Positions 14,334 through 58,061 of a DNA stretch of 64,000 nt are shown piece after piece; the first letter of the stretch is position 1, and every line of letters starts with the position of its first letter. The stretch covers positions 1 through 64,000 of the IMG/VR virus record IMGVR_UViG_3300009164_004014. One strand, 5' to 3'. Source of the DNA: a virus. The position numbers and the translations under genes were made by a program. The notes beneath the pieces were generated by a model that was not told the DNA's origin, made no database searches, and was given only the letters and a program-made list of their open reading frames with translations.

Positions 14334-17300
14334 ATGGCAACAAGAATTAGAACATTAGATTTTCTTCCTGAAATATTCAAAACACCTACCAATAGTCAGT
14401 TTCTTCAGGCAACGCTGGATCAATTAACTGCACAACCAAATACCAAAAAAATAGAAGGGTATATTGGAAGTACGTTTGGATATGGAATAAACGCCAATGA
14501 TTATTATGTTACTGAACCAACTAAAGTTAGAACCGATTATCAATTAGATCCGGGAGTTGTATTTTTAAAAGAAGATACATCTACTGCTAATGATTTTATT
14601 AGTTACCCTGGAATTGTTGATTCATTAACGATACAGGGTGGAGTAACTAATAATAACAATCGATTATTTAACAGTGAATTTTATTCATGGGATTCTTTTA
14701 CTAATTTAGATAAAATAATTAATTTTAATCAGTACTATTGGTTACCTGTTGGTCCTGAACGTGTAGTTGTTACAAGTGATATAGTTTATAATTCTTCAGA
14801 TTATGTTGTTATTAGTACACCAACTGAATATTTAATTTCATCTGAAACTTTAACTACACCTACTGCTAACCCATCATTAACCTTACTAAGAGGTGGTACG
14901 TACACATTTACAGTAAATCAAGATACTGAATTTTGGATACAAGGTCAGCCGAGTGTCACCGGTTATAGCCCAACTCAACCAAATGTACAAACACGAAATG
15001 TATATGGTGTTACTAACAATGGCGCTTCAATAGGGACAATAACATTTACTGTACCTGAAAAAAATGCGCTAGATGAATATAATTTTCCAACTGGACCCGG
15101 TGTTGATGTAATATCTAGCATACCCTTTGATGAATTAAACGGAGCATTTGTAAATGACATAGGTGGAGTAGACGGGATTACTGCATTGGATGGGTTAACA
15201 GTACTGTTCTACAATACTGGAATACTTGATGAAATAGGATATGTTGAAAAATTTTATGATCAAACATTATATGATCAAGAGACAAGCGGTTCAGTTAGCC
15301 CGGGCGGCGGAGTACCATATGATAATACAACAGATTATCCCGGAACATCAATCTTTAATTATAATTATGAAGGTGGATATTATACAACAGTAAATGCTAA
15401 TTTTTATACTATAACATTATTGGGTGATCAAGATAATCCTCAAATTCAACTTACACCAGCAGGCACTGTTCCTACTAATTTAACGATAACACCAAATTTT
15501 GGTGACTCTTATGCTAACCTTAAATTCTATAGAAATACGGCGGGTTATATTTCACTTGTTCCCTACAACAGTGCAATATTAGATACGTTATATTATCAAG
15601 ATGGAACTAATCCAAATAAAGTTGGTGCAATAAGATTAATTAATAGTAATATTACTAACACTATAAATGTAGTAACTCAGATATTAGGTAAAAGTAGTTA
15701 TACTTCTCCTAACGGTGTAGTGTTTACTAATGGATTGAAAGTATTATTTCAAGGTGATATTTACCCCGAAAGTTATAACAACGTAGAATACTATGTAGAG
15801 GGTGTAGGAGATTCTATTGAATTAATACCAGTAACAACTTTGGTGACACCGGGATTGTTTTCTGAGGGAACATATATTCCTTTTGATACCACTCCATACG
15901 ATGTTGGTAATTATGACATTAGTTTAAATATCCCCATTACACCGGATTATATTACTATTGCTAGAAATGCAATTAATAAAAATGCTTGGTCAAGAAGTAA
16001 CAGATGGTTTCATATTGATGTTATTAGGGCTACCGCGGAATATAATAATACACCCGCATTGATCACTCAATTAGCAACATTAAATAGTAAAGCAAAGCGT
16101 CCAATTATTGAGTTTTATCCAAACTTACGTTTATTTGATTCTGGTGTATACGGAAAATCCCCGATTGATTTTATGGATACTAGAACTACTGACGCATTTA
16201 GCTATGTAGCAGGTCAACCTAATTATTACCCTGATACGGCAGGTTATACAAATTCAGTTGCTACTATTGCTCCAGTTACCGGATCTCTTACAAAAACAGC
16301 AACAGTAACGGTGGCTTTATTAAATCAAGTAACATTATCTAATACTACTGGTATACACGTTAACGATACTATAACATTTACTGGAAGTGCGTTTGGTGGA
16401 ATAAGCACTGACCCTACAAACAAAAATAATGTATATTATATTTTAGATATATTAGGAAATAATGTAATAATATCAAAAACAAAACAAGGAACTCCGGTTG
16501 TATTGACCACTGCATCGGGATCAATGACAGCAGCAGTGTATCCATATAGTACTTCTATTACAGTACCTAGTACAGATGTATTTGGTTTGTTTAGTGTTGG
16601 TCAATATATTACAGATTCTACTAACTTACTACCTTCAATTACTTTTGTTACTGATGTGTCTGTGGTAAGTTCTAATACAATAATCACGGTATCTTGGGAT
16701 AACCAATCTATCGTATACGGTACATCTGTTGCATCAGTTGTTACTGCCGACACGCCTTTAGACAATTATGCACTTTTTGATGGATCAAGAATAGTTTTTG
16801 CAGCCGACACAAATTTAGAAGTAAGAAATAAAATATATATTTCACATTTTTCTACTATCTCTGGATCAACTACTCCAGTAATTACACTTACTGAAGCAGC
16901 AGATGGTACTGTATTATTAGATGAGCAAACGGCAGTATATAGAGGATATAATAACAAAGGTAGTGATTTTTACTTTGACGGACTTAATTGGTATAAGGGA
17001 CAGCAGAAAACTAATGTAAATCAACCACCTCTTTTTGATATATTTGATAGTAATGGTATAAGTTTTGGTAATAAAGAATATTATATAGGTACGTCTTTTG
17101 TAGGATCTAAATTATTTTCTTATGGAATAGGTAGTGGATCAAACGATTCAATCCTAGGCTTTCCTTTAAGATATAGTTCTGTTGATAACGTGGGTGACAT
17201 TAGCTTTGATGTTACATTGAATAGTCAAACTTTTAACTATGTTACCGGAACAAAACCCATAACACAAAATGTAAATACTGGATATGTATATAATTATACT

Positions 17301-20300
17301 GCATATACAGACACTAGTTTATCTGTTGTCAAACAATTGGGATGGCAAACTGCTGTATCCCCAAGTGTTCAATATCAAATTTTTGAGTTTGATTATAACC
17401 CGTTAGTAACTGTAAACAACACCTTTGCTTGTGACATTGCAGCAATAACTAACACAAACTGGCCACCAATTCAGGTATACATTAATAATAATTATGTATC
17501 TAAACAAAAGGGTGCTTCTCAAATAATTGGAAATGTTGTCTCAGTAGGAATAGACCCCCAAACCATATTGAATTCACTTTTCCCCGACGCAATAACCGGC
17601 GACGCGGTGCTTGATAATTTATCCGGCAGTCTTTGGGTTAAAGGTGGGTTATTGTGGACAAGTGTAGGACAAATGAAAGGTTGGATAATTACAAATGCTT
17701 CAACTGACACTACTACTGAAGTTTATGTTCCAAATTTAGGTGCAGTTGAAACTGTCGTACAAATTTTAATATTAAGCAACCAAGTAAGTAAAACTGCGTA
17801 CTATCAAACTCCAATTAATTTAAATAATAATCCATTGAATCAAAGTATTACTACTGCTAATATAGGTGATATTCGTGGTCAATATCAAAGTATTTTTTAC
17901 AACAATCCAAATACAACCGGCGAAGTATTTGGATCAAACAACTATCGTGACTTAGGTAACTTAGTGCCATGGGGCAATAGAATTATTCAAAATAGTGCAT
18001 CATTAGTATTGCCGGGCGTATTTTTACGTAAACCCAGTCATAATTTATTTGATGCATTGATGTTTAACAGTTATCAGTATATTAACTTTAAAGCATTATT
18101 AATAAACACAGTAAATGACACTGCGTATTCTACTATAAATACTCCTGCCGAGATGTTAGATGGTGCATTAGATATAATGAACGCTTCCAAAACAGAAAGT
18201 GAATCTTTCTTTTGGAGTGATATGTTACCGTCAAAATCACCATATATAACTAATACATATAGTTTTGCGAATTCATTAGATATTAGCATTTATCCTTTAA
18301 GTAAAATTTATAATTTTGCAACTGCAAATTATAATGGTATTTTGGTATATTTAATAAGAAATGGTGAACAAACACAACTAGTTAAGGGAGTTGATTATAC
18401 TATAAGTACTGACAGCCCTTCACTGACTATTACTGTTGATTTATTGGCAAATGATACTATAACAATTAATGAGTATAATCAAACATATGGTAACTTTGTG
18501 CCAAATACTCCAACTAAGTTGGGATTGTATCCTGCAACAATTCCTAATGTTACCTTAGATACCGCATATTCTAATCCTACTTATTTTATTGTAGGACACG
18601 ATGGGTCATTTAATAAGTTATACGGAAGTTATGATTCTACTACAGGCAGTTTAACTGATTTTAGAGATCAAGTGTTATTAGAGTATGAAACTCGTGTTTA
18701 TAATAATTTAAAATTATCTGAAACTGTACCAGCTGGCTCTTATCAAGGTGTTGTGATACCAGGCTTCTTTAGACAAACAGATTATTCATATGATGAGTTT
18801 TTGCAAATTTATAGTGAAACATTTTTAAATTGGATTGGTAAAAATCGTATTGATTATAAAACTCAATTGTATAATGTTGCAAATCAATATACTTATAATT
18901 ATAGACAGTCTGGTAATAGAATAAATCAACAACCGCTGGATCAAGGATATTTTAGAGGATTGTATTTATATTTTTATGATACCTCTACGCCAGATCAAAC
19001 CCCATGGGAAATGCTAGGGTTAGCAAATAAACCAGCATGGTGGGAAACTAGATACGGTCCTGCACCGTATACAAGTGATAACTTGATATTATGGGATGAT
19101 TTAGCTGAGGGTTTAGTTTGGAATAACGGCAACTCATTCATAAAACCTAGTTATGCTCGTCCTAACTTGTTGGAAGTAATTCCGGTTGATAGTTACGGCA
19201 ATTTAGTTTCACCTTTTGTTTCTATTGTAGGAAATTACGATGATAACTTATTTAAGCGTGATTGGATAGTTGGCGATGTGGGTCCCGCTGAGTTTAGCTA
19301 TCGCAGAAGTAGCACGTGGCCTTTTGATTTGATGCGTATATTAGCAGTAACTAAACCTACAGATTTCTTTAATTTGGGTGTTGACGTTGACAATTACAAA
19401 TATAATATTGAATTTAATCAATACCTGGTAAACAATAGGAGTCATTTGGCGTTGTCTAATATTCCAATATATGGAAATGGAACTGCGGCAACCAGTTATA
19501 TTAATTGGATAGTAGACTATGAAAAACAAGTTGGTATTGATGCAACTACCAATATAACAACATTGTTGAATAATGTTGATGTTCGTTTGGTTTATCGTTT
19601 GGCAGGATTTAGTGATCAAGCATTGTTGAAATTCTTTGTAGAAAAAAGTTCAGCTAATAGTAATAATAGTTCATTGTTGATACCAGATGAAAGTTATGAT
19701 GTATTACTTTATGAAAATCAACCGTTTGATAAAATTGTATATAGCGGCGTAGTAATTCAAATATCAGAATATGGTTTTAAAGTATTTGGAAATTCACAAA
19801 CAAATGCATACTTTAAAGTATCAGTTCCGGCAAATGATGGTAAAGTTGAACGTATAACAGTTGAAGGTGACTCTGTATCATTGCCAATTACTTTTACTAA
19901 TAATGTTCAATTAATTCCATACGGATTTGAATTTTATAATATACAAGAAGTTGCAATTTTCTTAACTAGTTACGGTAATTATTTAAAAACACAGGGTATG
20001 AAGTTTGATGAAGTTGAAAACGGAATACCAGTGACATGGACACAAATGGTTGGTGAATTTTTATATTGGGCTCAGACCGGCTGGGAGATAGGTAGTATTA
20101 CAACAACAAATCCATGCGCTAATTTATTAGCAATAGATAAAGATAGTTACATTGTACAACCATTAACATTGAGACAATTAAATTTTGTATTGAATCAAAA
20201 TTTATATCCTATTCAATCTAATGATCTAGCAGTAGTACGTGACAATACCTTGTTTACAGCAGCACCATTAAATGTAGGAGATTCAATAAGTTACGGACAA

Positions 20301-23300
20301 TTTAATATTAGCAATATAGAACATGGAATTGTTTTTAATAATGTTACATTGTTCAATGATGTAATTTATAATTTAATTACTGGCTTACGTCAAAATAGAA
20401 TTTATGTACGTGGAACTAAAACTGCTGATTGGAACGGTACGGTAGATGCATATGGATTTATTTTAAATCAAGATAATATTAAAGCCTGGGATAAAAATAT
20501 AAAGTATACTACAGGTTCAGTTATAAAATATAAAAATAAATATTGGATAGCAATAACTATAGTTCAACCTAAAGAAATTTTTGACGAACGTGAGTGGAAA
20601 CAAACTTCTTATAATGAAATACAAAAAGGATTGTTACCTAATAGCCAAACACGTTCATATGAAAGCACATTGTATTATGATACAAACAATGCTAATCTAG
20701 AAAAAGATGGTGATTTATTAAGTTTTTCATTAATTGGTTATCGTCCTAGAGACTACATGACTAGTGCTGATTTAACAGATGTTACACAAGTTAATGTTTA
20801 TCAAAATTTAATTAAAGAAAAAGGTACAAAAAATGCAGCCAGTGCTTTTAGAGGAGCCACACTAGCACAAGGTGGAATTAACTATGACCTGTATGAAAAT
20901 TGGGCAATAAAATCCGGAGAGTTTGGTGGAGTTTTAAATAGTAACTTTGTTGAAATTCCATTACAAGAAAGTGTATTGACTGGAAATCCTTCTATTGTGG
21001 GGTTAACTAATGGGGTATATACCGACGGAGTTCAACAAGAAGTGCCTTTATACTCTATAACAAATTACGGTAGACCAATAAACAGTCCAAACATACTACC
21101 TACTATTGCTCTGGATACTCCTTCTACTTTATTACCAACTGCCGGTTATGTTAATTTTAACGATGTTAAAATGGCAAGCTATTTTTATTCAGGTTTGGCA
21201 AATGCAGTAAATGCATCAGGTACCGTAATTCCAATAAATCAATTTTATGTACGTGATTATGTTTGGTTAGCAAATTATCTTTCAACTTGGCAAGTGTTTA
21301 CTCCTGCTAGTTTGGGATCAATTGTTAATGCTAAAAATAATTTAAACAACACTGTTACTATAACATTTAGCCAAGCACATAACTTAGTTAAGTATCAAGT
21401 CTTTGCAATAGTTAATTTTAATGCTTCAATTGATAATTATTATAGTATTGCAGCGGTTGTAGATCCATTTAATGTTATTATAAACCTGTCATTAGATCCT
21501 GGCATAAGAAATATTACTGGATTGGGTGTTGGATTTAGAATGCAAACTCAACGTGTTGCAACTGCACCGGAAATTATTAATTTACCATTATTAGATAATG
21601 AATTTAATAAATTAAAAGTATGGGTAGATACAAACAATGACGGCAGCTGGGCAGTTTATCGTAAGAGTATAAACTATCAATATAATAAAGAAATAACAAA
21701 TTCTCAAACTAGCCAAAGTTTTGGTAGCGCAGTAGCCTACACATCAACTCTGGGTTATTTAATTGCAGATAGTGGTGTTGGAAGTGTTTATAGATATCGT
21801 TACTATAGTGAAATAAATTCTTATTCAATAATTCAAACTATTACTAAGGGTTCATCATTTGGTTCAAACATAACATACACTGATGATATTTTTATAATTT
21901 CTGAACCCACCGGTGCTAAAAATGTTTATGTATACCAATTAATAACTACTGCATTGGTCAATGACCTTGAATTGATTCAAACAATACCCTATACAGATGG
22001 TACAGGAGTAACAAACTGGGGTAGTTCAACTTCATTATCAGGAGATAAAAATTGGCTTTATATATCTGACATTAATAATAATAGTGTCTATGTCTATAGA
22101 AAATCTGTTGTTACTAGTTTGTACGAAAAAGTAAACGTACTTGACGGTGATATATTAGGATTAACATCTGCTGGCGATAACTTTGGATATTCTATCTCTA
22201 CTGATTATTATGGAGATACAGTAGTCATTGGTACACCTAAGCAAGATTACTCTACTCTTGCTAACTATGGATATTCTTATGTTTTCTCTCGTCTAGTACA
22301 AAATTTTACTGCTACGAATACCAGTCAATTATATTCACCTTCAATCTTTAATTTAGCATGGACTATATCTCCGGCTCTATTATCAACAACTGCAAATACT
22401 ATATCAAGTAATTATATCACATTGGGTAGCGTAGCCGGTTTAAGTTCTGGTGCTACTGGAACCCCTGTTGTATTTACAGGTTCACCCTATGGTGGATTAG
22501 CAGCAAACACAGTTTATTATGTAAAATCAATAGTAGGTTCTACTATTTCAGTATCTTTAACTAGAAACGGTACTGCATTGACATTAACAAACGGTACAGG
22601 CACAATGACCGCAGTTGGTCAAACATATCCATTATTTGTTACAGTCAACGGTACTGCTTTAGCAGATAATTATTATAGTATAATAGGATCAACTTTAAAT
22701 GTTTATAGTTCTCAAGTTCCTACATTAAATGCAGGTGATATACTTAATGTTAGTGGTATGAATTTTGTACTTGTACAAACATTAGATACTGAGCAAACTC
22801 CTAAAACCGGTGTGCAATTTGGAACAAGTGTTGATACTAATAAATTTGCAAGCGAAATTTTAATTGGTGCACCGTTTGAGTTAGATTCTCAAAATCATGA
22901 GGGTGCAGTATATCGTTATACTAACGGCGGTGAAAGTTATGGTGTCATAATAGGAACTTCTGTTTGTTCCATTACAACACCAAGAACTATAATGTTAAAT
23001 GGTTATGCTATTGTGTTGCCAGCCGGCAACGCAAGTGCAGCAGTACAGGTAATAAATCAAACAAGAGTGACTAATATTACTGCAAGTGAATTTAACGGTA
23101 AATTATTAATTCAATTGATAGATAATGCACTAGGAACCCCAAATAATAAGTTGTCTCTAACCGCAGTAGAGTCAGCTACATTTGCCGAAATGGGGATAGA
23201 TATTTATGCTCAAACACAAACTATTAATTGCCCGCATTTGACCGGCACAACTCAATTTGGAACAAAAATAAAATTTGATAAATCAGATTCGGGTTCTTTT

Positions 23301-26300
23301 ATTGCAAGTGCTCCAACCGGAATTAGGTTCTCTGCAACTACATTTGACTTTACAGATGATGAATTAGACAATGATACTGTGTTTGATAATAACGCCACTC
23401 AGTGGATAGATACTTTTAATAATGCCGGTGCAGTTTACATGTTTGATTACTTGGCTGCGTATAATGAAAATCTATCTAATCTTGGTAAATTTGTATATGC
23501 ACAAAGTACAAATGCATTGAATATTGATTATGGCAGTCAACCTCTATATGGAACCGCATTGGATTTCAATGAAAACACAGTTACTGTTGGTGCACAAAAC
23601 TTTAATCCAACTACTGATAATATTGATCTGTTTGGACAAGTAGTAACTTACACAAGTTCAAGTGCTACTCCCGACTGGACGGTATATAGATATTCATCTC
23701 CAATTGTTGATGTCAATGGAATAGGCCCAATTCAATTGTATAGTGCTTCAACAAATGAAACATTAATTAATTTAGATTATTTTGATCCAATGCAAGGTAA
23801 ATTGTTAGGGGCTGTTCAAGAAAATATTGACGTTATATCAAATGCTGATCCAGCTAGATATAACTCAGCTAATAATCAAGGTGGATTAGTTTGGGGAGCA
23901 GATAAAGTTGGTCAAATTTGGTTAGACACTTCAAGTATTAGATTTATGAATTATCATCAAAATGATGATGTTTTATACAATAGCAGATTTTGGGGAAGAG
24001 TTTTTCCCGGAAGTAATATTGCGGTTTATACTTGGATTTCAAGTAATGTTCCCCCGGCACAATATATCGGGCCCGGAACACCATTATTAATAGACACCTA
24101 CTCTATTCAAGGTACAGTTAACGCAGAAGGATTAGTAGTTCCAATATACTTTTTCTGGGTCAGAAATACAAATATAGTTTTTGAAACAATAGGAAAAACA
24201 TTAGCTGATTCTACCTTAGAATTATATATTGCTCAACCCCAAGGAACAGGAATTAGTTATCTATCACCTTTCTTACCTAATGTGTTTGGATTATATAACT
24301 GTTCAAATTATGTCAATGCTTTTGATACAAGATTGCATTTAGGATATGCTACTAGCAATACCAACGACGATCCAATGCACAACCAATATAGTTTGATTAG
24401 ATCAAACTATGCAGATGATTTCTTGCCCGGGCTACCTAGAAATAGTCAGTCATATTCTGCAAATACGTCTTACATTGATGCGCCAACAAGTTTATATAAC
24501 AAATTACTAGACAGCATGTGCGGTGTTGATATTAGCGGAGCAGTAGTACCAAATCCATTATTACCAAAATTGGTGCAGACCGGGGTTATGTCAAGACCAA
24601 GACAAGGATTTTTCTATGATAGATTTGGTGCATTGAAAAATTATTTACAATATGCCAATACTATATTGGCGCAATTTCCAATAACAGAAAGTAGAAGCGC
24701 AGCATTTTTGTCAACATCTGGTGTGTTTTTCAATACCAAAGATTATTGGAATTATATAAACTGGTGGGAGACCGGCTACAATGACAATACTAAAGCAACC
24801 TTGCAAGTTCCCATATATGCAGATTTAGCTACTTTGAATGTAGCAACAGGTACAATTGTTTCAGTGTTGTCTAACAGTACTGGTAATACTGAAACATACA
24901 TATACAATGGTGATACAACTTGGACTAGAATTGGACTAGCAAATGGTACTATAGAATTTAGCAGCTACTTATGGGATTACTCAGCGGCTAAGTTAGGCTT
25001 TGGTGATAATTTTTACGATACCAATGTGTATGATGAATATCCTAGCGAAGAAACAAGATATATTGTTCGTGCTTTAAACGAAGAAATTTATACCAATGAA
25101 TTATTAATTTTTAGAAATAATAGTTTGATTTTATTGTTTGATTATATTCAAAGTGAAACTGCTGAAAATCAAAACTACTTACCATGGTTAAATAAAACTT
25201 CATTAGTAGACGTATCACACACTATACGAGAATTATTGCCACTAGAAGTATTTAGGTCAGATAATCAAATATTTTTAGAAGGTTATATCAACGAAGTTAA
25301 ACCATATCATGTGGTTATAAAAGATTTCTTATTTAAATATACCAAGACTGATGTTTTTGAAGGAGACATCACTGACTTTGATTTACCATCTGAATGGAAC
25401 TCAACTTACCAACAATTCATATCTCCTCAATTAGTATATTCTAATCCTGGTGATATAAATCAATATTTACCAAGTGATCCGATTTGGCAAACTGCTCAAT
25501 ACAATCAGTGGTTTAATAATTATGGATTGAGTGTTGGTTATCGTACAAATAATACTATTACCGGTGAGCAAGATTATCCTATTACATTGTTAACATCATA
25601 TGTTTCTTTAAATTCAAGTAATTTGTTTGTTGAAAATGTTTCGGGGTTCCCTGTAACAGGTACAATATTAATAGGTACAGAATTAATTGGATATGCCGGA
25701 GTAAATTTATTAACAAATCAATTAATTGGATTATCTAGAGGTAGAAACAATACTATTACACAAATACATTTACCGAGTGAACAAATTTATATTGATTTGC
25801 CTGCGGTAATAGTACTAAATTCAGGAAGAAATTACGCAGAACCTCCCCGTGTTACTGCATATATTGATACTAATTTATACCCTGCGCCTAGAGTACCGGC
25901 GCAACTTGCTCCAATAATGGCTCTAGATAAAGTCATAGGAGTGGAAGTAATTAATCCCGGAGAAGGTTACGCTGTTCTTCCAACTATTAACATTGATCCT
26001 GCATTTACCATTACTGTAAATAGCACAGCAGTTGATATTATTAATGATGCAATTGAAGTAACTTCAGCAATCATACAAACAGGAGACATTGCAATATATC
26101 AGCCAGCAGCCGGCTCAACTAAAATTGGTGGGTTGTATGCAGGACAAAGATACTATATTAGAGTATTAGAAACTACTCCGTCAAAATTAATTGCGTTCTA
26201 TGAAAGTTATATTAATTTAAATAATGATCACGACCGTGTTTTGTTGACTAGTACTGGATCCGGTAATCAATATTTTAGTATAGGTGCGATAGCTTCTTGT

Positions 26301-29300
26301 ATTACAAGTTCTATACCAATACGAGAAAATACTATTAAATTAAGATTTGATAGAACATCATATACTTCTCAAGTATATGATTGGGTTCCCGGAAGTTTCT
26401 ACGGTTCTTTCTATGCTGGATCATTTAATGATTCTGCTCGCATTGCATCTTCATCTATATTATTGCCAAATACACAAGAAGATGCATCGGAACCAGTAAA
26501 ATCAATACTAGCAAGCAATCACGGTGTAGTATTTGAAATATTAGATGTAGAAAATTTACAAACTTCATCTTGGTCATCACGCACTAGAGATACTGTTCAA
26601 ACATATGGACCTGCAACATCTTATCCAAATGCAATAAGAATTAATCCAAGTGAAGGCGGCTCATCGGTTGACTTACTATTAGGCTCGACTATAGGTTTCT
26701 ATGTAGGTATGCCAGTTAAATTTGAGGGAGAAATACAGTCAGGAAGTCCAATAACAAATTACACAACATACTATATAAAATCATTAGTTAAGTTGCCAAA
26801 TATTACTGTTGGTAGTCCGTATTACGGTCAACTAGAAAACACTGGATTTACAATTTCTACTAGTGTAGATGGCGCCGGAGTTCCAGGATCAGTACTAACA
26901 TTAACGACTGCAACAGTCCCTGCAGCAGGATTAACTTTATATGTGGGCGAAGTAACTAATAATGCATTATTAACTATCAACTATGATGGCATTAGAACTG
27001 CGACTGCTACTACAGCGGGAATAAATGCTATTACAGTTCCGTTGACACCCACTGGATTAGGTGGAACGATCAATTTTTATTCAGGGCTTACTGTATTCTT
27101 TACCGGTGATGTATTTGGACAAGTGATAGAAAATGAACAGTATTATGTAACTACTGTGATAGACTTAGAACATTTTACAATGTCAGCTACTAATACACCA
27201 ACCATACTTGATATTACTGCTACAAGTTCAGTTGGTTCTAAAGTAACATGTAACAGTACGCTAGATTTATATGTAAATGAACCTATAATATTTACTGGAA
27301 CAACTTTTGGTAATATAGTTGCTGGAACAACATATTATATTAGAGAATTATTTTCAGGAAATGCAACATTCTCTATTTCTCAATCAATCAATGGTCCTTT
27401 GTTTGTATTGACTACTGCCACTGGTTCGTGTACTTGCACAAGTCAAGCAGATACTGTTGTATTATCAACAGTATCTGATAAATCAATGACATTGAATGTT
27501 GGAATACCAGTAAGTCCAGGACAAATCAACGGTCAAGAATTAACATTCTATGGTTCAGGTGGTCCATATGTTGGTGTATCAGGAACTGTTTCTAACTTAT
27601 TAACTAGAGAAATTACTTCAACATTAACGTCGGTAAATAGAATTTGTTTATCAGCAGCTAGCGGCGGTATTACTAATATCTATAATAACATGAATTTTAA
27701 TGTCGCTAGTAATATAGGTGGATTAACAACATCAAGTGGTCCATACACTGTTGTAACAAATGGTGTTACTTCAATAACAGTAACTAATACTAGTGGGACA
27801 GGAAATTGGTTAACATTGCCTGTTGCGTCTAACCCCAACACAACTGCTATCTTGTATGTTGGCATGCCAATATACTTCAGTGGAGTATCGTTGGGGGGAG
27901 TATCATTGAATACAGTTTACTATGTTTATAGTATTGATGGCAGTCCACCAGCTAACACCGGCAGATTTAAAATTGCAGATGCAATTGATAGCGTTTCTCC
28001 TGTTACTGTTTCAAACGATAATGGTGTAATGACTGGTACAGGAGAAACTTATATTACTGTAAGTAATAGTTTATCAACACAGATTGGACCTGTAGCGTTG
28101 ACACAAGCAGTTGGCACTACTCCAACATTCAATGTAAGCTATACTTTAGGTGGTTATAGTACAGTTCCTGTAATTACAGGTAGTGGATATGCAGTTAATA
28201 ATATTATAACTATCCTTGGCACAGATATTGGTGGAACAACTACGACAAATGATTTATCATACCAAGTATTAACTATAAATTCAACCGGCGGAGTATTGAC
28301 GGGCATAGTTACAGGAACCCCTGCAGGCAACGAACAAAAATATTATGCCAAAGTTTATTCTGAAAATCAAATCGAGTTATATTCAAACCCTACATTAACC
28401 TCAGCAGTAACTGGACAAAACTTCCCGTATGTAGGAATAACATTAACAACCGCAACACAATCAGTTGCATCGACTGATAGAATTACTGTAGGAAGTTCTG
28501 CTTCATTTAATATCAACGATCCAGTGGTGTTCACTGGGACAGTGTTTGGAAATATTGTATTGGGTAGTACATATTATATTAATGGCAAACCTACATCTAC
28601 TACAGTAACAGTAACTGAAACAATTGGTGGAAGCACATTCCAACTAGCCGATGCAACAGGATCAATGACTATGGCCAAAACAGGTGATTACACCTTCTTA
28701 CCAGAACCATTCTTCTTTAGTAGTAGTATAGTTAAATTTAATAACCAAGTATATCAATGTATTATTAGTAATAATGATCAAGATTTCATTGTAGGTAAAT
28801 GGGAATTATTAACTTCTGGCAACAGTAAATTAAACGCATTGGATAGGGTAATAGGATATTATCAACCTACAGTAAATATGCCGGGTGTAGATTTGACTCA
28901 ATTGGTAACTGGAATAACATATCCAAATAGCACATACTTGGGTAATGCATTTGCTCCGGCAGATGAATATCCGTTGGATACTATACTAATTGATCAACCT
29001 TTCTATCAAACTGGTATAAATTTAAAAACAATAATTTGGAATGGCACAGTTTATTTGGCTGGAGCAGATTTAAGTACATATTCTTCAGTTAACATAAGTG
29101 CTGACGCCATGACATGGGATATTGCTAAATTAGCAAATCAACCTATTAGTGTGACAGATTTTATATTTGCTGGTGGAAGATATGTAATTACTAGTAACAA
29201 TAGCGCAACTCCTATATTAGTAAGTGATAACGGATACAATTGGATAACTAATGGATTGTATACTCCTTACAGTAGTGTTGGTTGGGACGATACAACATTT

Positions 29301-32300
29301 GACATATCATCTATTCTTGCCCCTTCACTGTCATTAAATAGTGTTGCGTATTATAATGGAATATATGTTGCAGTAGGTAATAATATTATATCTTCTACTG
29401 ATTTATACACTTGGACTGAAAGATATAGTTTCCCTAGCACTCTACCTAACAATGTATTCAACGGGGTAGCCTATGTAAGTACTGCTGGATTTACTGGATT
29501 TATTGCAGTTGGTCTAGGTCAAACTGTAGGAAATAATAATGCACTTTTAAATGTAAGTATAATATTTACAAGCACTGATGGTTACTCATGGACTCAGATA
29601 CCGTTCGGTAGTTCAACGTTTGCATTTAATGCTATAACATCTAATGGACAGACTATTGTTGCAGTGGGCAATAATGGAATTATTTACACAAGTTTTAATG
29701 CTACTACATGGTTCGCACAATCATCAGGAACTGTTCAGAATTTAAATAGTATTATTTGGAATAATGTTAGTGGATTGTTTGTTGTAGTAGGAGACAATGG
29801 TACTATATTAACAGCTGGGTCCGACGGAGGCACATGGACTCCAAGAACATCAGGAGTTAGCTATAGCTTACAAAGCATAGTGTGGAATAACGCAAACACA
29901 GAATATGTTGTTGTGGGTTATAATAATACAGTGTTGAGAAGTTCAAACGTGAGTACATGGACTGCATCGTCTACCTTTGTTTCGGCACCGTCAGTTTACA
30001 GTGTTCAGGGTAGTGAATTTACTGATGGTTATGGACCAGAAGAAATGATTCCGGGTGTTGTAACAGACACTATCACAATGATAACTAACACACGTCCCGG
30101 AACTAACTGGGACGAAACTATATACCAACATGTTGGATACAATGTAGTTTCATTGGAAATATCTCCTACGTCAGGAACACAAAAAACATATAGTTTTGCT
30201 GACGCAGTTACTACCCCGGCACAACTTGGTATTTTTGTGATTAGTTATATAACTGGATTGAGCACCTCATTATATGAAGGCATTGATTATACAATTAATT
30301 GGATAACAAAGACTGTTACATTAGAAAATTCAATAACATTTGTTCCTAACGGTATTTCAGATAAATTGCGTATTGATGTATATGAAGTAGGCAACGGAGA
30401 TCAATTAGTAAAAGCTAACACCGAAACTGATCCAATAAGATATAATACAAATACTACTTTTAGTGAGATTTATCTTAACGCAAACTTTACTGCTGAAATT
30501 TATCAAGGATCAGGTCTTGTACGTCCATCTACACAACCAATCGTAGTTAATGCAATTGAAACTAACTCAGTTTCTAATGCAATAACATGTACAGAGGTAA
30601 ATGATTTTGTACTTAATAGTCCTGTCAGATTTAGCGGAGCAGTTTTTGGTAACATAGTAGAAGATCAAATTTATTATGTAAAATCTATAAGTAGTGTATC
30701 ATCAAGAATTACTATATCAGAGACATATAATACTACAACAGGAACTGCTGGATCTACCTTTGAGTTAGCATCCGCTACGGGAAGTATGGGTGTTATTATT
30801 CAGACTAGCACTGCACAAGTTTGGACAGAACCTAGTATATTCCATAACGGGACTGCATTGATTTTAGGAACCTCTGAGAATGTTTTAAAAACAAAATCAA
30901 TTACTAATACTATTACAACGGTGACCACTAGTGGATTGATTCCAAATACTCCTATTGTGTTTAGTAGTACTATTTTTGGTGGCATAACTCCAAAGACAAC
31001 ATATTATATAAAAACTATATACGATGCAAATGAATTTACCATTTCAACTACTCCGGGAGGAACTGTATTTCCATTAACTGATGCTACTGGCGGCGCAATA
31101 TTTATAACAAATGATTATGCTATTGGAATGGCTAGCAATGGTATTAACGCCTCAATTATGTTCCCGGTAAATTACGATGCTACTGTTGACTATATAACGT
31201 ATACATTAATGGGTCAAACAATACCTATTCAATATGGCTATACATTGCCGCAGACACAATTTTTCACCGGTAACGGCAGTGCATCTTCATTCAATTTGAC
31301 AAATTATATGGGAGGAACAAACCCAAATAATGCTATAGTAGAAGTAAATGGTATTAGACAAAATAAATCAGCCTATACTATTAATTCTTCAACTAACACA
31401 TTACTTTTTAATAATACTCCACCGGCAAACGGGGACTTAATATGCGTAACATCATATAATTTAACTGACCGTCAATATTTAAATTCACAGTACAACGTTA
31501 CTGGTATTAATAGTATAGCTAGTATTACTGTAAGCAACACTACAGCAACTGGAATACCTTTTGATTACGGTATACTTGCTGGAAGTTTTGTTGTTGGACA
31601 ACGCTATACTATACAATCACTCAATGATAATGCATATCCAACCCCTGGCGCAAACACAGATTTTACAGCAATTGGTGCATCATCTAATACAGTTGGTGTT
31701 ACATTTACTGCAACTGGAGCAGGTACAGGCACAGGGTCTGCTATTATAGCCGGTGATGGATTTGATGCAACTGTCCAATCAGCTGGTTCATTTATACTTG
31801 GACAAAGTTACACTATAGTAACATTGGGTACTACTACAAATACTCAATGGAATACTATTGCTGGAACCTCAGCGATAACGTATTCAGTTGGTAGCACATT
31901 TACTTGCGCTAACATAGGAACTGGACTTGGTACTGGAACAGCGTATACAGTAGGGTTATACAGTCAGTCGTTGAATTATTTGACATTGGCATCAGGTTCA
32001 ACTAGCAGCTTAGTACTCAATAGTGCTATAGTATTTGAAAACGTAATAGGTGGAATAATTGCCGGACAAACTTATTACATAACACAAATATTAAATTCTA
32101 CTGACTTTGTTATTTCTACTCAAGTTGGTGGAGTGCCGTACGAAGTTACTACCGCTAGCGGAGCAATGACCAGTGTTGTTAAGGGCCTAACCGTGTCACC
32201 TATAGTGGGCGTTGATTCTAACATCAGCAATCAACTAAGAATTGGAGTATCCGGTACAGTAGGTGCAACTGATTATGTAATATGTGACTCAACTGCAGGT

Positions 32301-34187
32301 ATGGTTGAAGGTCAAGATATTGTTTTTCAAGCACCAGTCTTTGCAATCAATTCTGCATTAATAGTTACCTATCAATATGAAATAGTTTCTTTGGGTAACA
32401 CTACACAATTGCAATGGAACGATGCTGCCGGAACTTCGGGAGTTGATTATGCAGTTGGAGATAGATTTACGGCAGCGACAACTGGTGTGGGTACCGGTAC
32501 AGTGTTCCTTTCTGACTTGGGTGGAATTAGCACACTTGGTCAAATATATTATGTAAGAGAAATTAATATTGATGGTATACATTTTAGTATCGAAAATCAA
32601 GAAGGTGATATAATTAATCTTTCTAATTCTTCTAGTACAGTCATAGCATTTATGGGCGGTTTAACTGCGGTAAGAATTGTTACTGGAATTGATAATAATT
32701 TCACACAGAACCAAATAGTAAGACTTGATGGATTGGGCGGATCAGTTCAATTAAACAATAATACATATTATGCTAGAATAATTAGTAACACTGAATTTGA
32801 TTTATATAATCAACCGTATGTCCCATATTATGGCGCTGCAAATAGTCCAGTAACTAATATATCTGCATATACTTCAGGTGGGTATGCATGGTTAGATCAA
32901 TTATTTACTATTGTTGACACTACAACTATTAGTACTAAATCATCAACTAATAGAATTGTAGTTGATGATGCAACTATGATGGTATCAGGAACACCGGTAT
33001 ATTTCACACAAGCTGCTGCGGTAACAGATCAAAATATTTTAAGTAATATAAAAGCAAACCATGAATATTATGTATTAGATGCAACACCAATTACTATTGC
33101 TGGAAATTTTGTTGTAGGCTTACAATATCAAATCTTAGATTTGGGTACTACTACAAACACTCAGTGGAATACTATTGCAGGAACATCGGGTGTTACCTAT
33201 CAAGTAGATGATATCTTCACCGCTGCAACAGTGGGTACAGGAACAGGAAGTGCTTCCGGTTTGCAAGAATTTACTATTACCGACGATAGATATCCAAATG
33301 AAGCTGAAGTTGTATTAACAAATGCTACAGGTGTAGTAAATGTTACTCAGTTCCAGCAAGTTAACGTAGACAGATTATGGGTAACCGTTAACGGATTAAG
33401 AGTTCCATCTTCATCATTAAAATTAAATGCATATAACAACTTGAGTATTTTGACAACTATTCAAACAGGTGATGTAGTAATCATATCTAGTATGATGCCA
33501 ACAGCAACTCCTAACGAAGAAACTTACTTATTAAATGTAAATACAACCAATCAAGCAGTGGTATATAGAGCAAACACACAAACTAGAACTTGGTTAACAA
33601 GTCCTTTATCATATACCAATGATACAATCTATTTGAATGATATCTCAAGAATTACTGATAGTATTGTTCAAAATAACACTTGCCCTGCAATTGATTTAGA
33701 TACAGGGACATATTTAATAGGATTAATTTCTAATAAAAACACATTATGTCATCTTACAGTTTATAATGATACTACAGGAAATTTAATAGACCCTAGTCAT
33801 TGGAAAATAGTTATCATTGATACTGCCCCAACATTACAAATTACTAATCCTAATGTTCCAGTAGTAACAACGGGAGATTTATTAACAATTACATCTATTG
33901 AAGGCAGGGTTTTATATGTCAATGGTGAACAAATTGGATTTAGTGAATGTGATTTGATTGCAAATACAGTAACTCAATTATTTAGAGGAGCGAACGGCAC
34001 AGGTGTTCAAAATTATATCCCTAAATATTCAGAAGTGTTTGGATTAACTCCTAATAATAAAATGACAAGTGTGTTGTATTCTGAATTATGGAATCCAATC
34101 CCAGGAATTTATAACACAGTTGAAGGGGATCCTTTACAAATAGCTGATACGCAGGGAGCAAACTTCTTGCGAGGGGACATAAACTAA
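14334..34187 (+). CDS. Giant (6617-aa) modular virion/baseplate structural protein
   Basis: One uninterrupted reading frame of 19.85 kb. The first ~130 residues (TLDFLPEIFKTPTNSQFL, then NFNQYYWLPVGPERV) and the end (WNPIPGIYNTVEGDPLQIAD) match the layout of large structural proteins that follow gp6 in marine T4-like phages; by position it could replace T4 gp7. Between these lie beta-rich modules: a CBM5/12-like segment near residues 2050-2090 (W..NIKYTTGSVIKYKNKYWIA) and a second near 4790-4828; FG-GAP-like repeats at about 2440-3080 (FGSAVAYTS, FGTSVDTNKFASEILIGAP); a seven-motif Asp-box region at 4896-5216 (STDGYSWT type); about eleven copies of an FTG-xxFGxI-xxYYV module; and four copies of a GTTTNTQWNTIAGTS module in 5749-6280. 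Sugar-binding-like modules suggest host-surface contact (inference). Starts ATG after a late-type motif. Confidence 0.8.
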   Translation: MATRIRTLDFLPEIFKTPTNSQFLQATLDQLTAQPNTKKIEGYIGSTFGYGINANDYYVTEPTKVRTDYQLDPGVVFLKEDTSTANDFISYPGIVDSLTIQGGVTNNNNRLFNSEFYSWDSFTNLDKIINFNQYYWLPVGPERVVVTSDIVYNSSDYVVISTPTEYLISSETLTTPTANPSLTLLRGGTYTFTVNQDTEFWIQGQPSVTGYSPTQPNVQTRNVYGVTNNGASIGTITFTVPEKNALDEYNFPTGPGVDVISSIPFDELNGAFVNDIGGVDGITALDGLTVLFYNTGILDEIGYVEKFYDQTLYDQETSGSVSPGGGVPYDNTTDYPGTSIFNYNYEGGYYTTVNANFYTITLLGDQDNPQIQLTPAGTVPTNLTITPNFGDSYANLKFYRNTAGYISLVPYNSAILDTLYYQDGTNPNKVGAIRLINSNITNTINVVTQILGKSSYTSPNGVVFTNGLKVLFQGDIYPESYNNVEYYVEGVGDSIELIPVTTLVTPGLFSEGTYIPFDTTPYDVGNYDISLNIPITPDYITIARNAINKNAWSRSNRWFHIDVIRATAEYNNTPALITQLATLNSKAKRPIIEFYPNLRLFDSGVYGKSPIDFMDTRTTDAFSYVAGQPNYYPDTAGYTNSVATIAPVTGSLTKTATVTVALLNQVTLSNTTGIHVNDTITFTGSAFGGISTDPTNKNNVYYILDILGNNVIISKTKQGTPVVLTTASGSMTAAVYPYSTSITVPSTDVFGLFSVGQYITDSTNLLPSITFVTDVSVVSSNTIITVSWDNQSIVYGTSVASVVTADTPLDNYALFDGSRIVFAADTNLEVRNKIYISHFSTISGSTTPVITLTEAADGTVLLDEQTAVYRGYNNKGSDFYFDGLNWYKGQQKTNVNQPPLFDIFDSNGISFGNKEYYIGTSFVGSKLFSYGIGSGSNDSILGFPLRYSSVDNVGDISFDVTLNSQTFNYVTGTKPITQNVNTGYVYNYTAYTDTSLSVVKQLGWQTAVSPSVQYQIFEFDYNPLVTVNNTFACDIAAITNTNWPPIQVYINNNYVSKQKGASQIIGNVVSVGIDPQTILNSLFPDAITGDAVLDNLSGSLWVKGGLLWTSVGQMKGWIITNASTDTTTEVYVPNLGAVETVVQILILSNQVSKTAYYQTPINLNNNPLNQSITTANIGDIRGQYQSIFYNNPNTTGEVFGSNNYRDLGNLVPWGNRIIQNSASLVLPGVFLRKPSHNLFDALMFNSYQYINFKALLINTVNDTAYSTINTPAEMLDGALDIMNASKTESESFFWSDMLPSKSPYITNTYSFANSLDISIYPLSKIYNFATANYNGILVYLIRNGEQTQLVKGVDYTISTDSPSLTITVDLLANDTITINEYNQTYGNFVPNTPTKLGLYPATIPNVTLDTAYSNPTYFIVGHDGSFNKLYGSYDSTTGSLTDFRDQVLLEYETRVYNNLKLSETVPAGSYQGVVIPGFFRQTDYSYDEFLQIYSETFLNWIGKNRIDYKTQLYNVANQYTYNYRQSGNRINQQPLDQGYFRGLYLYFYDTSTPDQTPWEMLGLANKPAWWETRYGPAPYTSDNLILWDDLAEGLVWNNGNSFIKPSYARPNLLEVIPVDSYGNLVSPFVSIVGNYDDNLFKRDWIVGDVGPAEFSYRRSSTWPFDLMRILAVTKPTDFFNLGVDVDNYKYNIEFNQYLVNNRSHLALSNIPIYGNGTAATSYINWIVDYEKQVGIDATTNITTLLNNVDVRLVYRLAGFSDQALLKFFVEKSSANSNNSSLLIPDESYDVLLYENQPFDKIVYSGVVIQISEYGFKVFGNSQTNAYFKVSVPANDGKVERITVEGDSVSLPITFTNNVQLIPYGFEFYNIQEVAIFLTSYGNYLKTQGMKFDEVENGIPVTWTQMVGEFLYWAQTGWEIGSITTTNPCANLLAIDKDSYIVQPLTLRQLNFVLNQNLYPIQSNDLAVVRDNTLFTAAPLNVGDSISYGQFNISNIEHGIVFNNVTLFNDVIYNLITGLRQNRIYVRGTKTADWNGTVDAYGFILNQDNIKAWDKNIKYTTGSVIKYKNKYWIAITIVQPKEIFDEREWKQTSYNEIQKGLLPNSQTRSYESTLYYDTNNANLEKDGDLLSFSLIGYRPRDYMTSADLTDVTQVNVYQNLIKEKGTKNAASAFRGATLAQGGINYDLYENWAIKSGEFGGVLNSNFVEIPLQESVLTGNPSIVGLTNGVYTDGVQQEVPLYSITNYGRPINSPNILPTIALDTPSTLLPTAGYVNFNDVKMASYFYSGLANAVNASGTVIPINQFYVRDYVWLANYLSTWQVFTPASLGSIVNAKNNLNNTVTITFSQAHNLVKYQVFAIVNFNASIDNYYSIAAVVDPFNVIINLSLDPGIRNITGLGVGFRMQTQRVATAPEIINLPLLDNEFNKLKVWVDTNNDGSWAVYRKSINYQYNKEITNSQTSQSFGSAVAYTSTLGYLIADSGVGSVYRYRYYSEINSYSIIQTITKGSSFGSNITYTDDIFIISEPTGAKNVYVYQLITTALVNDLELIQTIPYTDGTGVTNWGSSTSLSGDKNWLYISDINNNSVYVYRKSVVTSLYEKVNVLDGDILGLTSAGDNFGYSISTDYYGDTVVIGTPKQDYSTLANYGYSYVFSRLVQNFTATNTSQLYSPSIFNLAWTISPALLSTTANTISSNYITLGSVAGLSSGATGTPVVFTGSPYGGLAANTVYYVKSIVGSTISVSLTRNGTALTLTNGTGTMTAVGQTYPLFVTVNGTALADNYYSIIGSTLNVYSSQVPTLNAGDILNVSGMNFVLVQTLDTEQTPKTGVQFGTSVDTNKFASEILIGAPFELDSQNHEGAVYRYTNGGESYGVIIGTSVCSITTPRTIMLNGYAIVLPAGNASAAVQVINQTRVTNITASEFNGKLLIQLIDNALGTPNNKLSLTAVESATFAEMGIDIYAQTQTINCPHLTGTTQFGTKIKFDKSDSGSFIASAPTGIRFSATTFDFTDDELDNDTVFDNNATQWIDTFNNAGAVYMFDYLAAYNENLSNLGKFVYAQSTNALNIDYGSQPLYGTALDFNENTVTVGAQNFNPTTDNIDLFGQVVTYTSSSATPDWTVYRYSSPIVDVNGIGPIQLYSASTNETLINLDYFDPMQGKLLGAVQENIDVISNADPARYNSANNQGGLVWGADKVGQIWLDTSSIRFMNYHQNDDVLYNSRFWGRVFPGSNIAVYTWISSNVPPAQYIGPGTPLLIDTYSIQGTVNAEGLVVPIYFFWVRNTNIVFETIGKTLADSTLELYIAQPQGTGISYLSPFLPNVFGLYNCSNYVNAFDTRLHLGYATSNTNDDPMHNQYSLIRSNYADDFLPGLPRNSQSYSANTSYIDAPTSLYNKLLDSMCGVDISGAVVPNPLLPKLVQTGVMSRPRQGFFYDRFGALKNYLQYANTILAQFPITESRSAAFLSTSGVFFNTKDYWNYINWWETGYNDNTKATLQVPIYADLATLNVATGTIVSVLSNSTGNTETYIYNGDTTWTRIGLANGTIEFSSYLWDYSAAKLGFGDNFYDTNVYDEYPSEETRYIVRALNEEIYTNELLIFRNNSLILLFDYIQSETAENQNYLPWLNKTSLVDVSHTIRELLPLEVFRSDNQIFLEGYINEVKPYHVVIKDFLFKYTKTDVFEGDITDFDLPSEWNSTYQQFISPQLVYSNPGDINQYLPSDPIWQTAQYNQWFNNYGLSVGYRTNNTITGEQDYPITLLTSYVSLNSSNLFVENVSGFPVTGTILIGTELIGYAGVNLLTNQLIGLSRGRNNTITQIHLPSEQIYIDLPAVIVLNSGRNYAEPPRVTAYIDTNLYPAPRVPAQLAPIMALDKVIGVEVINPGEGYAVLPTINIDPAFTITVNSTAVDIINDAIEVTSAIIQTGDIAIYQPAAGSTKIGGLYAGQRYYIRVLETTPSKLIAFYESYINLNNDHDRVLLTSTGSGNQYFSIGAIASCITSSIPIRENTIKLRFDRTSYTSQVYDWVPGSFYGSFYAGSFNDSARIASSSILLPNTQEDASEPVKSILASNHGVVFEILDVENLQTSSWSSRTRDTVQTYGPATSYPNAIRINPSEGGSSVDLLLGSTIGFYVGMPVKFEGEIQSGSPITNYTTYYIKSLVKLPNITVGSPYYGQLENTGFTISTSVDGAGVPGSVLTLTTATVPAAGLTLYVGEVTNNALLTINYDGIRTATATTAGINAITVPLTPTGLGGTINFYSGLTVFFTGDVFGQVIENEQYYVTTVIDLEHFTMSATNTPTILDITATSSVGSKVTCNSTLDLYVNEPIIFTGTTFGNIVAGTTYYIRELFSGNATFSISQSINGPLFVLTTATGSCTCTSQADTVVLSTVSDKSMTLNVGIPVSPGQINGQELTFYGSGGPYVGVSGTVSNLLTREITSTLTSVNRICLSAASGGITNIYNNMNFNVASNIGGLTTSSGPYTVVTNGVTSITVTNTSGTGNWLTLPVASNPNTTAILYVGMPIYFSGVSLGGVSLNTVYYVYSIDGSPPANTGRFKIADAIDSVSPVTVSNDNGVMTGTGETYITVSNSLSTQIGPVALTQAVGTTPTFNVSYTLGGYSTVPVITGSGYAVNNIITILGTDIGGTTTTNDLSYQVLTINSTGGVLTGIVTGTPAGNEQKYYAKVYSENQIELYSNPTLTSAVTGQNFPYVGITLTTATQSVASTDRITVGSSASFNINDPVVFTGTVFGNIVLGSTYYINGKPTSTTVTVTETIGGSTFQLADATGSMTMAKTGDYTFLPEPFFFSSSIVKFNNQVYQCIISNNDQDFIVGKWELLTSGNSKLNALDRVIGYYQPTVNMPGVDLTQLVTGITYPNSTYLGNAFAPADEYPLDTILIDQPFYQTGINLKTIIWNGTVYLAGADLSTYSSVNISADAMTWDIAKLANQPISVTDFIFAGGRYVITSNNSATPILVSDNGYNWITNGLYTPYSSVGWDDTTFDISSILAPSLSLNSVAYYNGIYVAVGNNIISSTDLYTWTERYSFPSTLPNNVFNGVAYVSTAGFTGFIAVGLGQTVGNNNALLNVSIIFTSTDGYSWTQIPFGSSTFAFNAITSNGQTIVAVGNNGIIYTSFNATTWFAQSSGTVQNLNSIIWNNVSGLFVVVGDNGTILTAGSDGGTWTPRTSGVSYSLQSIVWNNANTEYVVVGYNNTVLRSSNVSTWTASSTFVSAPSVYSVQGSEFTDGYGPEEMIPGVVTDTITMITNTRPGTNWDETIYQHVGYNVVSLEISPTSGTQKTYSFADAVTTPAQLGIFVISYITGLSTSLYEGIDYTINWITKTVTLENSITFVPNGISDKLRIDVYEVGNGDQLVKANTETDPIRYNTNTTFSEIYLNANFTAEIYQGSGLVRPSTQPIVVNAIETNSVSNAITCTEVNDFVLNSPVRFSGAVFGNIVEDQIYYVKSISSVSSRITISETYNTTTGTAGSTFELASATGSMGVIIQTSTAQVWTEPSIFHNGTALILGTSENVLKTKSITNTITTVTTSGLIPNTPIVFSSTIFGGITPKTTYYIKTIYDANEFTISTTPGGTVFPLTDATGGAIFITNDYAIGMASNGINASIMFPVNYDATVDYITYTLMGQTIPIQYGYTLPQTQFFTGNGSASSFNLTNYMGGTNPNNAIVEVNGIRQNKSAYTINSSTNTLLFNNTPPANGDLICVTSYNLTDRQYLNSQYNVTGINSIASITVSNTTATGIPFDYGILAGSFVVGQRYTIQSLNDNAYPTPGANTDFTAIGASSNTVGVTFTATGAGTGTGSAIIAGDGFDATVQSAGSFILGQSYTIVTLGTTTNTQWNTIAGTSAITYSVGSTFTCANIGTGLGTGTAYTVGLYSQSLNYLTLASGSTSSLVLNSAIVFENVIGGIIAGQTYYITQILNSTDFVISTQVGGVPYEVTTASGAMTSVVKGLTVSPIVGVDSNISNQLRIGVSGTVGATDYVICDSTAGMVEGQDIVFQAPVFAINSALIVTYQYEIVSLGNTTQLQWNDAAGTSGVDYAVGDRFTAATTGVGTGTVFLSDLGGISTLGQIYYVREINIDGIHFSIENQEGDIINLSNSSSTVIAFMGGLTAVRIVTGIDNNFTQNQIVRLDGLGGSVQLNNNTYYARIISNTEFDLYNQPYVPYYGAANSPVTNISAYTSGGYAWLDQLFTIVDTTTISTKSSTNRIVVDDATMMVSGTPVYFTQAAAVTDQNILSNIKANHEYYVLDATPITIAGNFVVGLQYQILDLGTTTNTQWNTIAGTSGVTYQVDDIFTAATVGTGTGSASGLQEFTITDDRYPNEAEVVLTNATGVVNVTQFQQVNVDRLWVTVNGLRVPSSSLKLNAYNNLSILTTIQTGDVVIISSMMPTATPNEETYLLNVNTTNQAVVYRANTQTRTWLTSPLSYTNDTIYLNDISRITDSIVQNNTCPAIDLDTGTYLIGLISNKNTLCHLTVYNDTTGNLIDPSHWKIVIIDTAPTLQITNPNVPVVTTGDLLTITSIEGRVLYVNGEQIGFSECDLIANTVTQLFRGANGTGVQNYIPKYSEVFGLTPNNKMTSVLYSELWNPIPGIYNTVEGDPLQIADTQGANFLRGDIN
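27085..33290 (+). repeat. Interleaved protein-module repeats in the giant gene
   Basis: Module 1 (about 50 residues; FTG-x-x-FG-x-I then YY(V/I) then an (L/F)-x-x-ATGSMT end) occurs at about 27090, 27285, 27865, 28518, 30620, 30952, 32024, 32316 and 32994, with earlier single copies near 16375 and 22467. Module 2 (about 50 residues; G-x-Y-x-I-x-x-LGTTTNTQWN, then FTAA-x-x-GTGTG) occurs at about 31578, 31785, 32364 and 33105. The last two copies of module 2 sit inside copies of module 1. Module 2 copies at 31829 and 33143 are nearly identical in DNA, so at least one duplication is recent. Confidence 0.75.
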
Positions 34188-34354: not shown

Positions 34355-34975
34355 ATGTCAGTAATAACACTATCATATAAAGTAGATGGATTTATCAAAA
34401 TCTATGACCCTAACAACGGGAAGGTATTTGTAGACAAGAAAAATGCTATAAATTATGAAACTATGTCAGAGGCTATTGCTGATACGTTAAGCAGTCGCGG
34501 TTACGGGGAAATTTATGAAATGGCTTTTGGGAACGGCGGCGCAAGTGTTTCTGACACCGGAGTTATTACTTACTTGCCCCCAAACGTAACTGGACAGAAC
34601 GCAGCACTATACAACCAAACTTACGCTAAAATCGTAGATGATACCAGCGTTTTTAACTTAGACCCTACACGCAATAAAATGACGGTTACCCATACTACGG
34701 GTAAATATTATACTGATATACTAGTACAATGTTTACTAGATTACGGCGAACCGTCAGGGCAGGCAGCGTTTGATAATAGTACGCAAACTGATGGGGCGTA
34801 TGTTTTTGATGAATTGGGATTACTTGCAAATTATGGTACAGATAGTTCCGGACAAGTGATTACCAGATTACTAACTCATGTAATCTTTCATCCGGTTCAA
34901 AAGAGTTTAAATAGACAGATTCAGATTGATTACACCGTTAGAATTCAGAGTTTGACTAATTTAGTAACAATATAA
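34355..34975 (+). CDS. Virion structural protein (T4-like marine phage type)
   Basis: A 206-residue protein with the start VDGFIKIYDPNNGKVFVDKKNAINYE, then SRGYGEIYEMAFGNGGASV, GVITYLPPN, and an end with FDELGLLANYG and LTHVIFHPVQKSLNRQIQIDYTVRI. This arrangement is what I associate with a conserved structural protein that follows the giant wedge-associated protein in cyanophage-like genomes; I cannot give it a T4 gene number. It lacks a signal peptide and membrane segments. It sits between the giant gene and the fibre genes, which suggests a connector between baseplate and fibres (inference). Confidence 0.6.
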   Translation: MSVITLSYKVDGFIKIYDPNNGKVFVDKKNAINYETMSEAIADTLSSRGYGEIYEMAFGNGGASVSDTGVITYLPPNVTGQNAALYNQTYAKIVDDTSVFNLDPTRNKMTVTHTTGKYYTDILVQCLLDYGEPSGQAAFDNSTQTDGAYVFDELGLLANYGTDSSGQVITRLLTHVIFHPVQKSLNRQIQIDYTVRIQSLTNLVTI

Positions 34976-43067: not shown

Positions 43068-43068
43068 T

Positions 43069-45536: not shown

Positions 45537-45538
45537 AA

Positions 45539-57993: not shown

Positions 57994-58022
57994 TAAATTA
58001 TCTTTACCCCTTTGTAAAACTA

Positions 58023-58029
58023 TTAAATA
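58023..58029 (+). promoter_or_regulatory. Late-promoter-like TTAAATA with GTGTATG hairpin
   Basis: TTAAATA is followed immediately by the inverted repeat GTGTATG (58030-58036), AGAGAA, CATACAC (58043-58049), then GGGAG and the TTG start at 58062. The extended stretch TAAATAGTGTAT is identical to that at 1394-1405 before the first baseplate gene. Confidence 0.5.
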
Positions 58030-58061
58030 GTGTATGAGAGAACATACACGGGAGATTACTT

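Follow-up and report, generated by a model that had tools for sequence, protein, structure and literature searches.

Proteins of up to 7,694 aa have been reported from huge phages, some of them tentatively structural, and the passages describing these giants, which fall in the same size class as the protein analyzed here, give neither a family nor a growth mechanism for them (PMC7162821). Named relatives of the present protein belong to the family phrog_10938, whose members (RaK2 ORF070w, CBB_236, PA5oct EST35_0128 and Atu_ph07 gp180) are virion structural proteins likewise encoded after gp6. CBB_236 (10,023 nt) lies directly after gp6 (CBB_237) and was detected in virions by ES-MS/MS, with 21 unique peptides and 7.7% coverage (PMC5259590). 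The PA5oct orthologue is marked 'ESI-MS/MS' in its database record, and virion mass spectrometry of Atu_ph07 was reported for the cluster CDS 170-215, within which gp180 lies (PMC6102473). Cyanophages, too, have a giant gene between gp6 and gp8, encoding 3495 aa in ACG-2014e, 5195 aa in P-SSM2, 3884 aa in S-CAM9 and, by coordinates, ~6076 aa in syn9 (gp101, gp7), and by profile this cyanophage giant is a true gp7 (98.5% match).

The window, that is, the whole stretch of 64,000 nucleotides analyzed here, derives from a 64.8-kb virus contig that is a linear fragment, and contains 0 N. The genes around its giant ORF form a T4-type baseplate block:

376-1329, - strand, late sigma factor
3138-3452, gp53-like wedge subunit
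6584-8635, hub/lysozyme-like gp5
10435..10884, + strand, gp25-like baseplate wedge subunit (Pfam GPW_gp25 28.5 bits, above cut-off; phrog_43/261)
10939..14310, + strand, gp6-like baseplate wedge subunit, directly upstream of the giant gene (phrog_10646, E 4e-253; phrog_219, E 1e-20)
14334..34187, + strand, giant gene, ATG to stop, 6617 aa, phrog_10938 family
34355..34975, + strand, next gene, conserved (phrog_11259), following the giant gene

An earlier note, made from the letters of the window, had described an uninterrupted 6617-codon gene following gp6 and encoding a protein of roughly 700 kDa, with shorter versions in smaller relatives, and each of these points held. The frame runs from the ATG at 14334 to a single stop at its end (34187), the preceding ORF is gp6 with gp25 before it, and the computed mass is 719,860 Da (~720 kDa). 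GC3 is steady along the gene (0.16-0.25, falling to 0.10 in the last bin, which is short). The sole homopolymer flagged within it is GGGGGG at 27893. Given the base composition of the window, the longest ORF expected by chance is ~120 codons and the probability of 6617 open codons is ~10^-215. The phrog_10938 profile matches the two N-terminal thirds of the protein (E 1e-166 and 4e-86), and tblastn found it in 57 phage records, all of them jumbo-type save for short partial ones; no DNA-level relatives were found among named phages. Orthologues are shorter, at 3323-3341 aa in RaK2, 121Q, GAP32 and XaC1, 3771 aa in Vibrio 2.275.O, 3807 aa in SCTP-2, 3857 aa in PA5oct, 4449 aa in Atu_ph07 and 4555 aa in Phosso. 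Those checked lie directly after gp6 with the sole exception of Salicola phage SCTP-2 (L005 and 231230-234949), in which the orthologue is found ~92 kb from the gp6 match, after another 3.1-kaa ORF. By profile and alignment, the giant is thus identified as a phrog_10938 virion structural protein, of a family whose presence in virions is known from two orthologues.

In addition, 40 related IMG/VR contigs, fetched as 20 + 20, were compared; counts coincide within two pairs (G003/G010 and G007/G009), each of which may represent one phage. Downstream of gp6, 39 of these contigs have the gene as a single frame of 4811-7756 aa, the longest being that of G031, whose 7756 aa surpass the reported 7,694 aa, and the phrog_11259 gene lies downstream of the giant gene in 40/40. 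Proteins of the close clade of the window protein span 5.7-7.8 kaa, so that 6617 aa is no outlier there, and those of a sister clade, with a core that is ~44-47% identical, measure ~4.2-5.4 kaa. The claim that the protein is among the largest known from phages has to be qualified in view of cyanophage gp7 (~6.1 kaa), the reported 7,694 aa and the range of this clade.

Comparison by blastp identified five collinear blocks present in most of nine orthologues:

14334..14771, + strand, core block 1, aa 1-146 (collinear blastp, most named orthologues)
15936..16175, + strand, core block 2, aa 535-614 (blastp)
16776..18224, + strand, core block 3, aa 815-1297 (blastp)
18495..21056, + strand, core block 4, aa 1388-2241, best conserved (blastp; AF2 model)
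23676..25523, + strand, core block 5, aa 3115-3730 (blastp)

On these alignments, the blocks define a collinear core of ~2.2 kaa that is common to other jumbo phages, with 22-46% identity between the giant and the named members. An AF2 model of aa 1150-2300 has pLDDT values mostly of 80-90 over model residues 73-860. Searches of the PDB with aa 1-4334 and with profiles of the core and the N-terminal part found no sequence relatives, bar one match at E 0.8. Foldseek searches with both AF2 models returned no whole-core match (best E 0.02), VIA structure comparison covered mainly small domains, and Pfam on the whole chain gave only weak matches to FG-GAP_2, GEVED and TcaA. The stretches between and after the core blocks measure ~390, 200, 870 and 2890 aa in the window protein and are far shorter in RaK2-type orthologues. 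Relative to the latter, aa 147-534 constitute an insertion, aa 615-814 an insertion with one A module (see below), and aa 2280-3114 an insertion that contains one A module together with an FG-GAP-like repeat.

Repeat modules were defined by tiled self-comparison and then by HMMs; untiled self-blastp of the whole chain gave nothing. The HMMs detect 16 copies of module A (~72 aa) and 4 copies of module B (~47 aa) in the window protein, while module C (59 aa) is present in some relatives. The A modules are found in internal insertions and all along the C-terminal expansion:

16323..16547, + strand, A module in the aa 615-814 insertion (self-comparison, HMM)
22410..22628, + strand, A module in the aa 2280-3115 insertion (self-comparison, HMM)
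26676..28682, + strand, A-module cluster, aa 4115-4783, with one E (FCCH-like) copy (self-comparison, HMM)
30576..31118, + strand, two A modules, aa 5415-5595 (HMM, half-module models)
31578..31742, + strand, B copy 1 (HMM)
31782..31934, + strand, B copy 2 (HMM)
31989..32183, + strand, A module, aa 5886-5950 (HMM)
32271..32648, + strand, A split by B, nested A{B}, aa 5980-6105 (half-module order An-Bn-Bc-Ac; AF2 pLDDT ~90)
32355..32501, + strand, B copy 3, inside A{B} (HMM, half-module models, AF2)
32949..33254, + strand, A N-half, then B copy 4 (33099-33254); A C-half by eye only

In the named jumbo-phage orthologues no A or B modules were found, except for one A-like match in GAP32, and the consensus sequences of A, B and C have no Pfam matches. 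Searching phages by tblastn for modules B and C returned almost nothing, probably because the low-complexity filter masks them; C-like stretches do occur in the PHROGs tail fibre proteins phrog_38233 and 21413. Protein length tracks the combined count of A and B modules (Spearman ρ = 0.91, 41 proteins), a correlation that is descriptive, since the sequences are related, and the number of B copies ranges from 0 to 19 among close relatives, with the 19 hits in G031. In a comparison of 14 close relatives, rare insertion segments numbered 38 and consisted on average of 80% module, compared with a mean of 21% under random placement (largest of 1000 draws 44%) and with 39% (largest 61%) when the null is confined to the C-terminal part; some of these segments are common by descent between genomes, and not all of them represent independent events. 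Recent length changes among close relatives correspond to whole modules. The proposal that the gene grew by module insertion is supported by module-filled insertions between core blocks, by the length correlation and by the excess over the null; the extra length of the giant over its orthologues consists of insertions filled with repeat modules. As a separate observation, a 38-aa insertion at aa 1079-1116 (17568-17681) is unique to the window protein among the 14 close relatives and matches none of modules A, B and C.

Other small domains are distributed along the chain:

18240..18497, + strand, D domain 1, fold like the T7 gp17 / CBA120 TSP4 N-terminal anchor (VIA, HMM)
20478..20615, + strand, CBM5/12-like (chitin-binding type) copy 1 (VIA; Pfam below cut-off)
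28692..28823, + strand, CBM5/12-like copy 2 (HMM)
29103..29597, + strand, propeller-like repeats, BNR/WD-like by eye (internal repeat; fold assignment visual)
31254..31478, + strand, D domain 2, aa 5641-5715 (VIA, HMM)
32652..32849, + strand, E module, main part of an E1-FCCH-like beta-barrel (VIA; Pfam below cut-off)
33303..33509, + strand, D domain 3, aa 6324-6392 (HMM, 81 bits)

D domain 1 resembles T7 gp17 and TSP4 with VIA Z-scores of 5.6-8.1 (rmsd 2.0-3.2, 64-74 residues), and D domain 2 resembles TSP4 and phage B2 gp48/gp49 (Z 8.1-8.2, rmsd 1.6-1.7, ~65 residues). Against several phage anchor domains, the D domains score Z 5-8, which is the range of common arrangements, yet the matches are consistently of one kind. 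The D domains may therefore have the fold of the T7 gp17 and CBA120 TSP4 anchors, in the giant as three copies inside one long chain. CBM5/12-like copy 1 matches the Milano baseplate (8fqc) with Z 7.9 and rmsd 0.9, and Pfam CBM_5_12 at E 0.004 (17.7 bits, below the cut-off of 26.2). Both anchor and CBM domains are small, with middling Z-scores (6-8), and their binding roles are predicted. For the E barrel, VIA yields Z ~11-12 and rmsd 1.6-2.0 for ~79 residues over model 574-812, and Pfam E1_FCCH (PF16190) yields E 0.013 (16.0 bits, below the cut-off of 29.5); the fold is that of the E1-FCCH domain, with the copies of the giant lying below the Pfam cut-off and in a phage tail context. The E profile also matches many A sites, which suggests that A probably has the same fold as E.

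Half-module models reveal modules nested within one another. In G031, aa 6196-6435 read Bn-Cn-Bn-Cn-Cc-Bc-Cc-Bc, that is, B{C{B{C}}}, a perfect four-level closure. The number of matched half-pairs exceeds that of all 500 label shuffles in G031, G032, G008, G013, G002, G021, the window (16, against 15 in the largest shuffle) and a few others, and only equals the largest shuffle in many genomes. In the AF2 model of the window A{B}, pLDDT is ~90 and B has its own strands and helix. The first strand or strands of the E barrel are probably located before the A{B} insert in the model, and the spread of the E1-FCCH-like barrel over model 574-812 around A{B} makes a three-level nest in the window likely. 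A bolder and still speculative reading is that B and C act as mobile protein modules in a baseplate-region protein, entering beta-barrel loops and each other time and again to a depth of four or more and giving the longest phage protein known to us (G031); if true, this would be a protein-level insertion process absent from the cited work. Literature searches on nested domain insertion and on the largest phage protein found no direct precedent beyond PMC7162821. What is new here is the giant size range and the nested growth, the gene family being already known.

The window is a lone metagenomic contig, and an assembly artefact, misjoined genes or a masked frameshift, the last a worry already voiced in the earlier note, might in principle account for the length of the frame. 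Such an origin has a virtually negligible probability, since the single frame is kept in 39 of the 40 related contigs and dN/dS is low (~0.04-0.22) in all computable 1000-codon bins along the gene (six pairs; two bins saturated). Together with the ~10^-215 estimate, this rules out assembly error and chance alike; the giant ORF is a genuine gene, and an assembly accident is excluded as the cause of its length. The remaining contig, G026 (L024), carries this sequence in two ORFs of 4110 and 1087 aa with an ATGA overlap, split exactly after a CBM-like module, at the site of CBM5/12-like copy 2, either by natural gene fission or by a frameshift. This version implies that a single chain is not essential, and it lends some weight to the idea that the chain is cleaved after translation, the virion then holding several mature proteins and no single 720-kDa chain, which is also compatible with the peptide coverage of CBB_236 (PMC5259590). 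We regard cleavage as distinctly unlikely, given that nearly all relatives retain one frame and that neither a protease domain nor a conserved motif for cleavage surfaced in a non-systematic look.

A more serious contender, although not the favored one, is that the giant is a true orthologue of gp7, the baseplate wedge initiator, hugely enlarged as in cyanophages. The gene position is the same on the upstream side (gp25-gp6-[giant]), cyanophage genes at that position are both giant and gp7, and some small modules are common with cyanophage gp7 (probability 83% for 3770-3888 of the window protein and 97% for Atu_ph07). The gp7 core domain (T4 aa ~640-870, tested by sequence and profile), however, matches the giant only at E 2.7 and nothing elsewhere in the window, while controls match strongly (T4 1e-111, cyanophage 1e-67); hhalign of the giant N-terminal part, core and block 5 against gp7 gives probabilities below 2%, and the segments in common are modules, not the gp7 core. 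The suggested equivalence with the cyanophage protein thus stands for the position after gp6 and for some modules, and finds no support in the core; judged on sequence, the giant appears to hold the gp7 position, and membership in gp7 is not claimed. A pelagimyophage review has VrlC replacing gp7 (PMC7029224), and identity with VrlC was considered and dropped, as in phiM7 both gp7 and gp8 precede VrlC, which has a gene of its own. It is also unlikely, though somewhat less so than cleavage, that the A, B and C modules of the arm are neutral or selfish insertions piling up without benefit. Their nesting, the wide variation in copy number between close relatives and their near absence from other jumbo-phage orthologues would all fit such a process, but the C-terminal 2.9 kaa are under purifying selection (dN/dS 0.05-0.22) and end in a conserved tail present in 44 loci.

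Our preferred reading, to which we assign a probability of about 70%, is that the giant is a phrog_10938 virion structural protein, present as a single long chain at the outer baseplate by gp6 and composed of a core and a modular arm or scaffold. A baseplate function is likely. The five-block core would probably dock on the gp6/gp25 wedge, and the remainder could form an arm-like scaffold of FCCH-like barrels, T7-gp17-type fibre-anchor, CBM5/12-like and propeller-like domains, in which small beta domains may hold fibres or spikes apart, present them and contact the cell surface. The baseplate of RaK2 virions bears ramified fibres (PMC3622015), in keeping with an arm that carries fibres but without showing it. 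The gene would grow by gaining whole modules in surface loops, the loops of earlier modules included. A traceable family of this kind shows a route to phage genes of 20-23 kb, through a fixed core and whole loop modules, with the reading frame kept in nearly all relatives and with nesting four or more levels deep. How giant phage proteins originate thereby becomes testable, and the baseplate region emerges as a place where structure changes quickly in a widespread metagenomic phage clade. Modules A-F are offered to annotators.

Several further features were observed in the window. A 54-bp tandem repeat (1868-2227, 6.7 copies) lies within a 573-aa ORF (1423-3144; virion structural, phrog_12050), and a 595-aa ORF (8637-10424) with a weak tape-measure match (phrog_58) contains 33-bp tandem arrays encoding GAAGGALGGL-type repeats. 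In a run of neighboring ORFs at 40417-47778, an FCxxPWxH...PCC-like start recurs in four, and the ORFs at either end of the run match radical SAM families. Finally, the region 55600-62611 encodes UDP-glucose dehydrogenase-like, B12-binding radical SAM and carbamoyltransferase genes, possibly a surface or nucleotide modification block.
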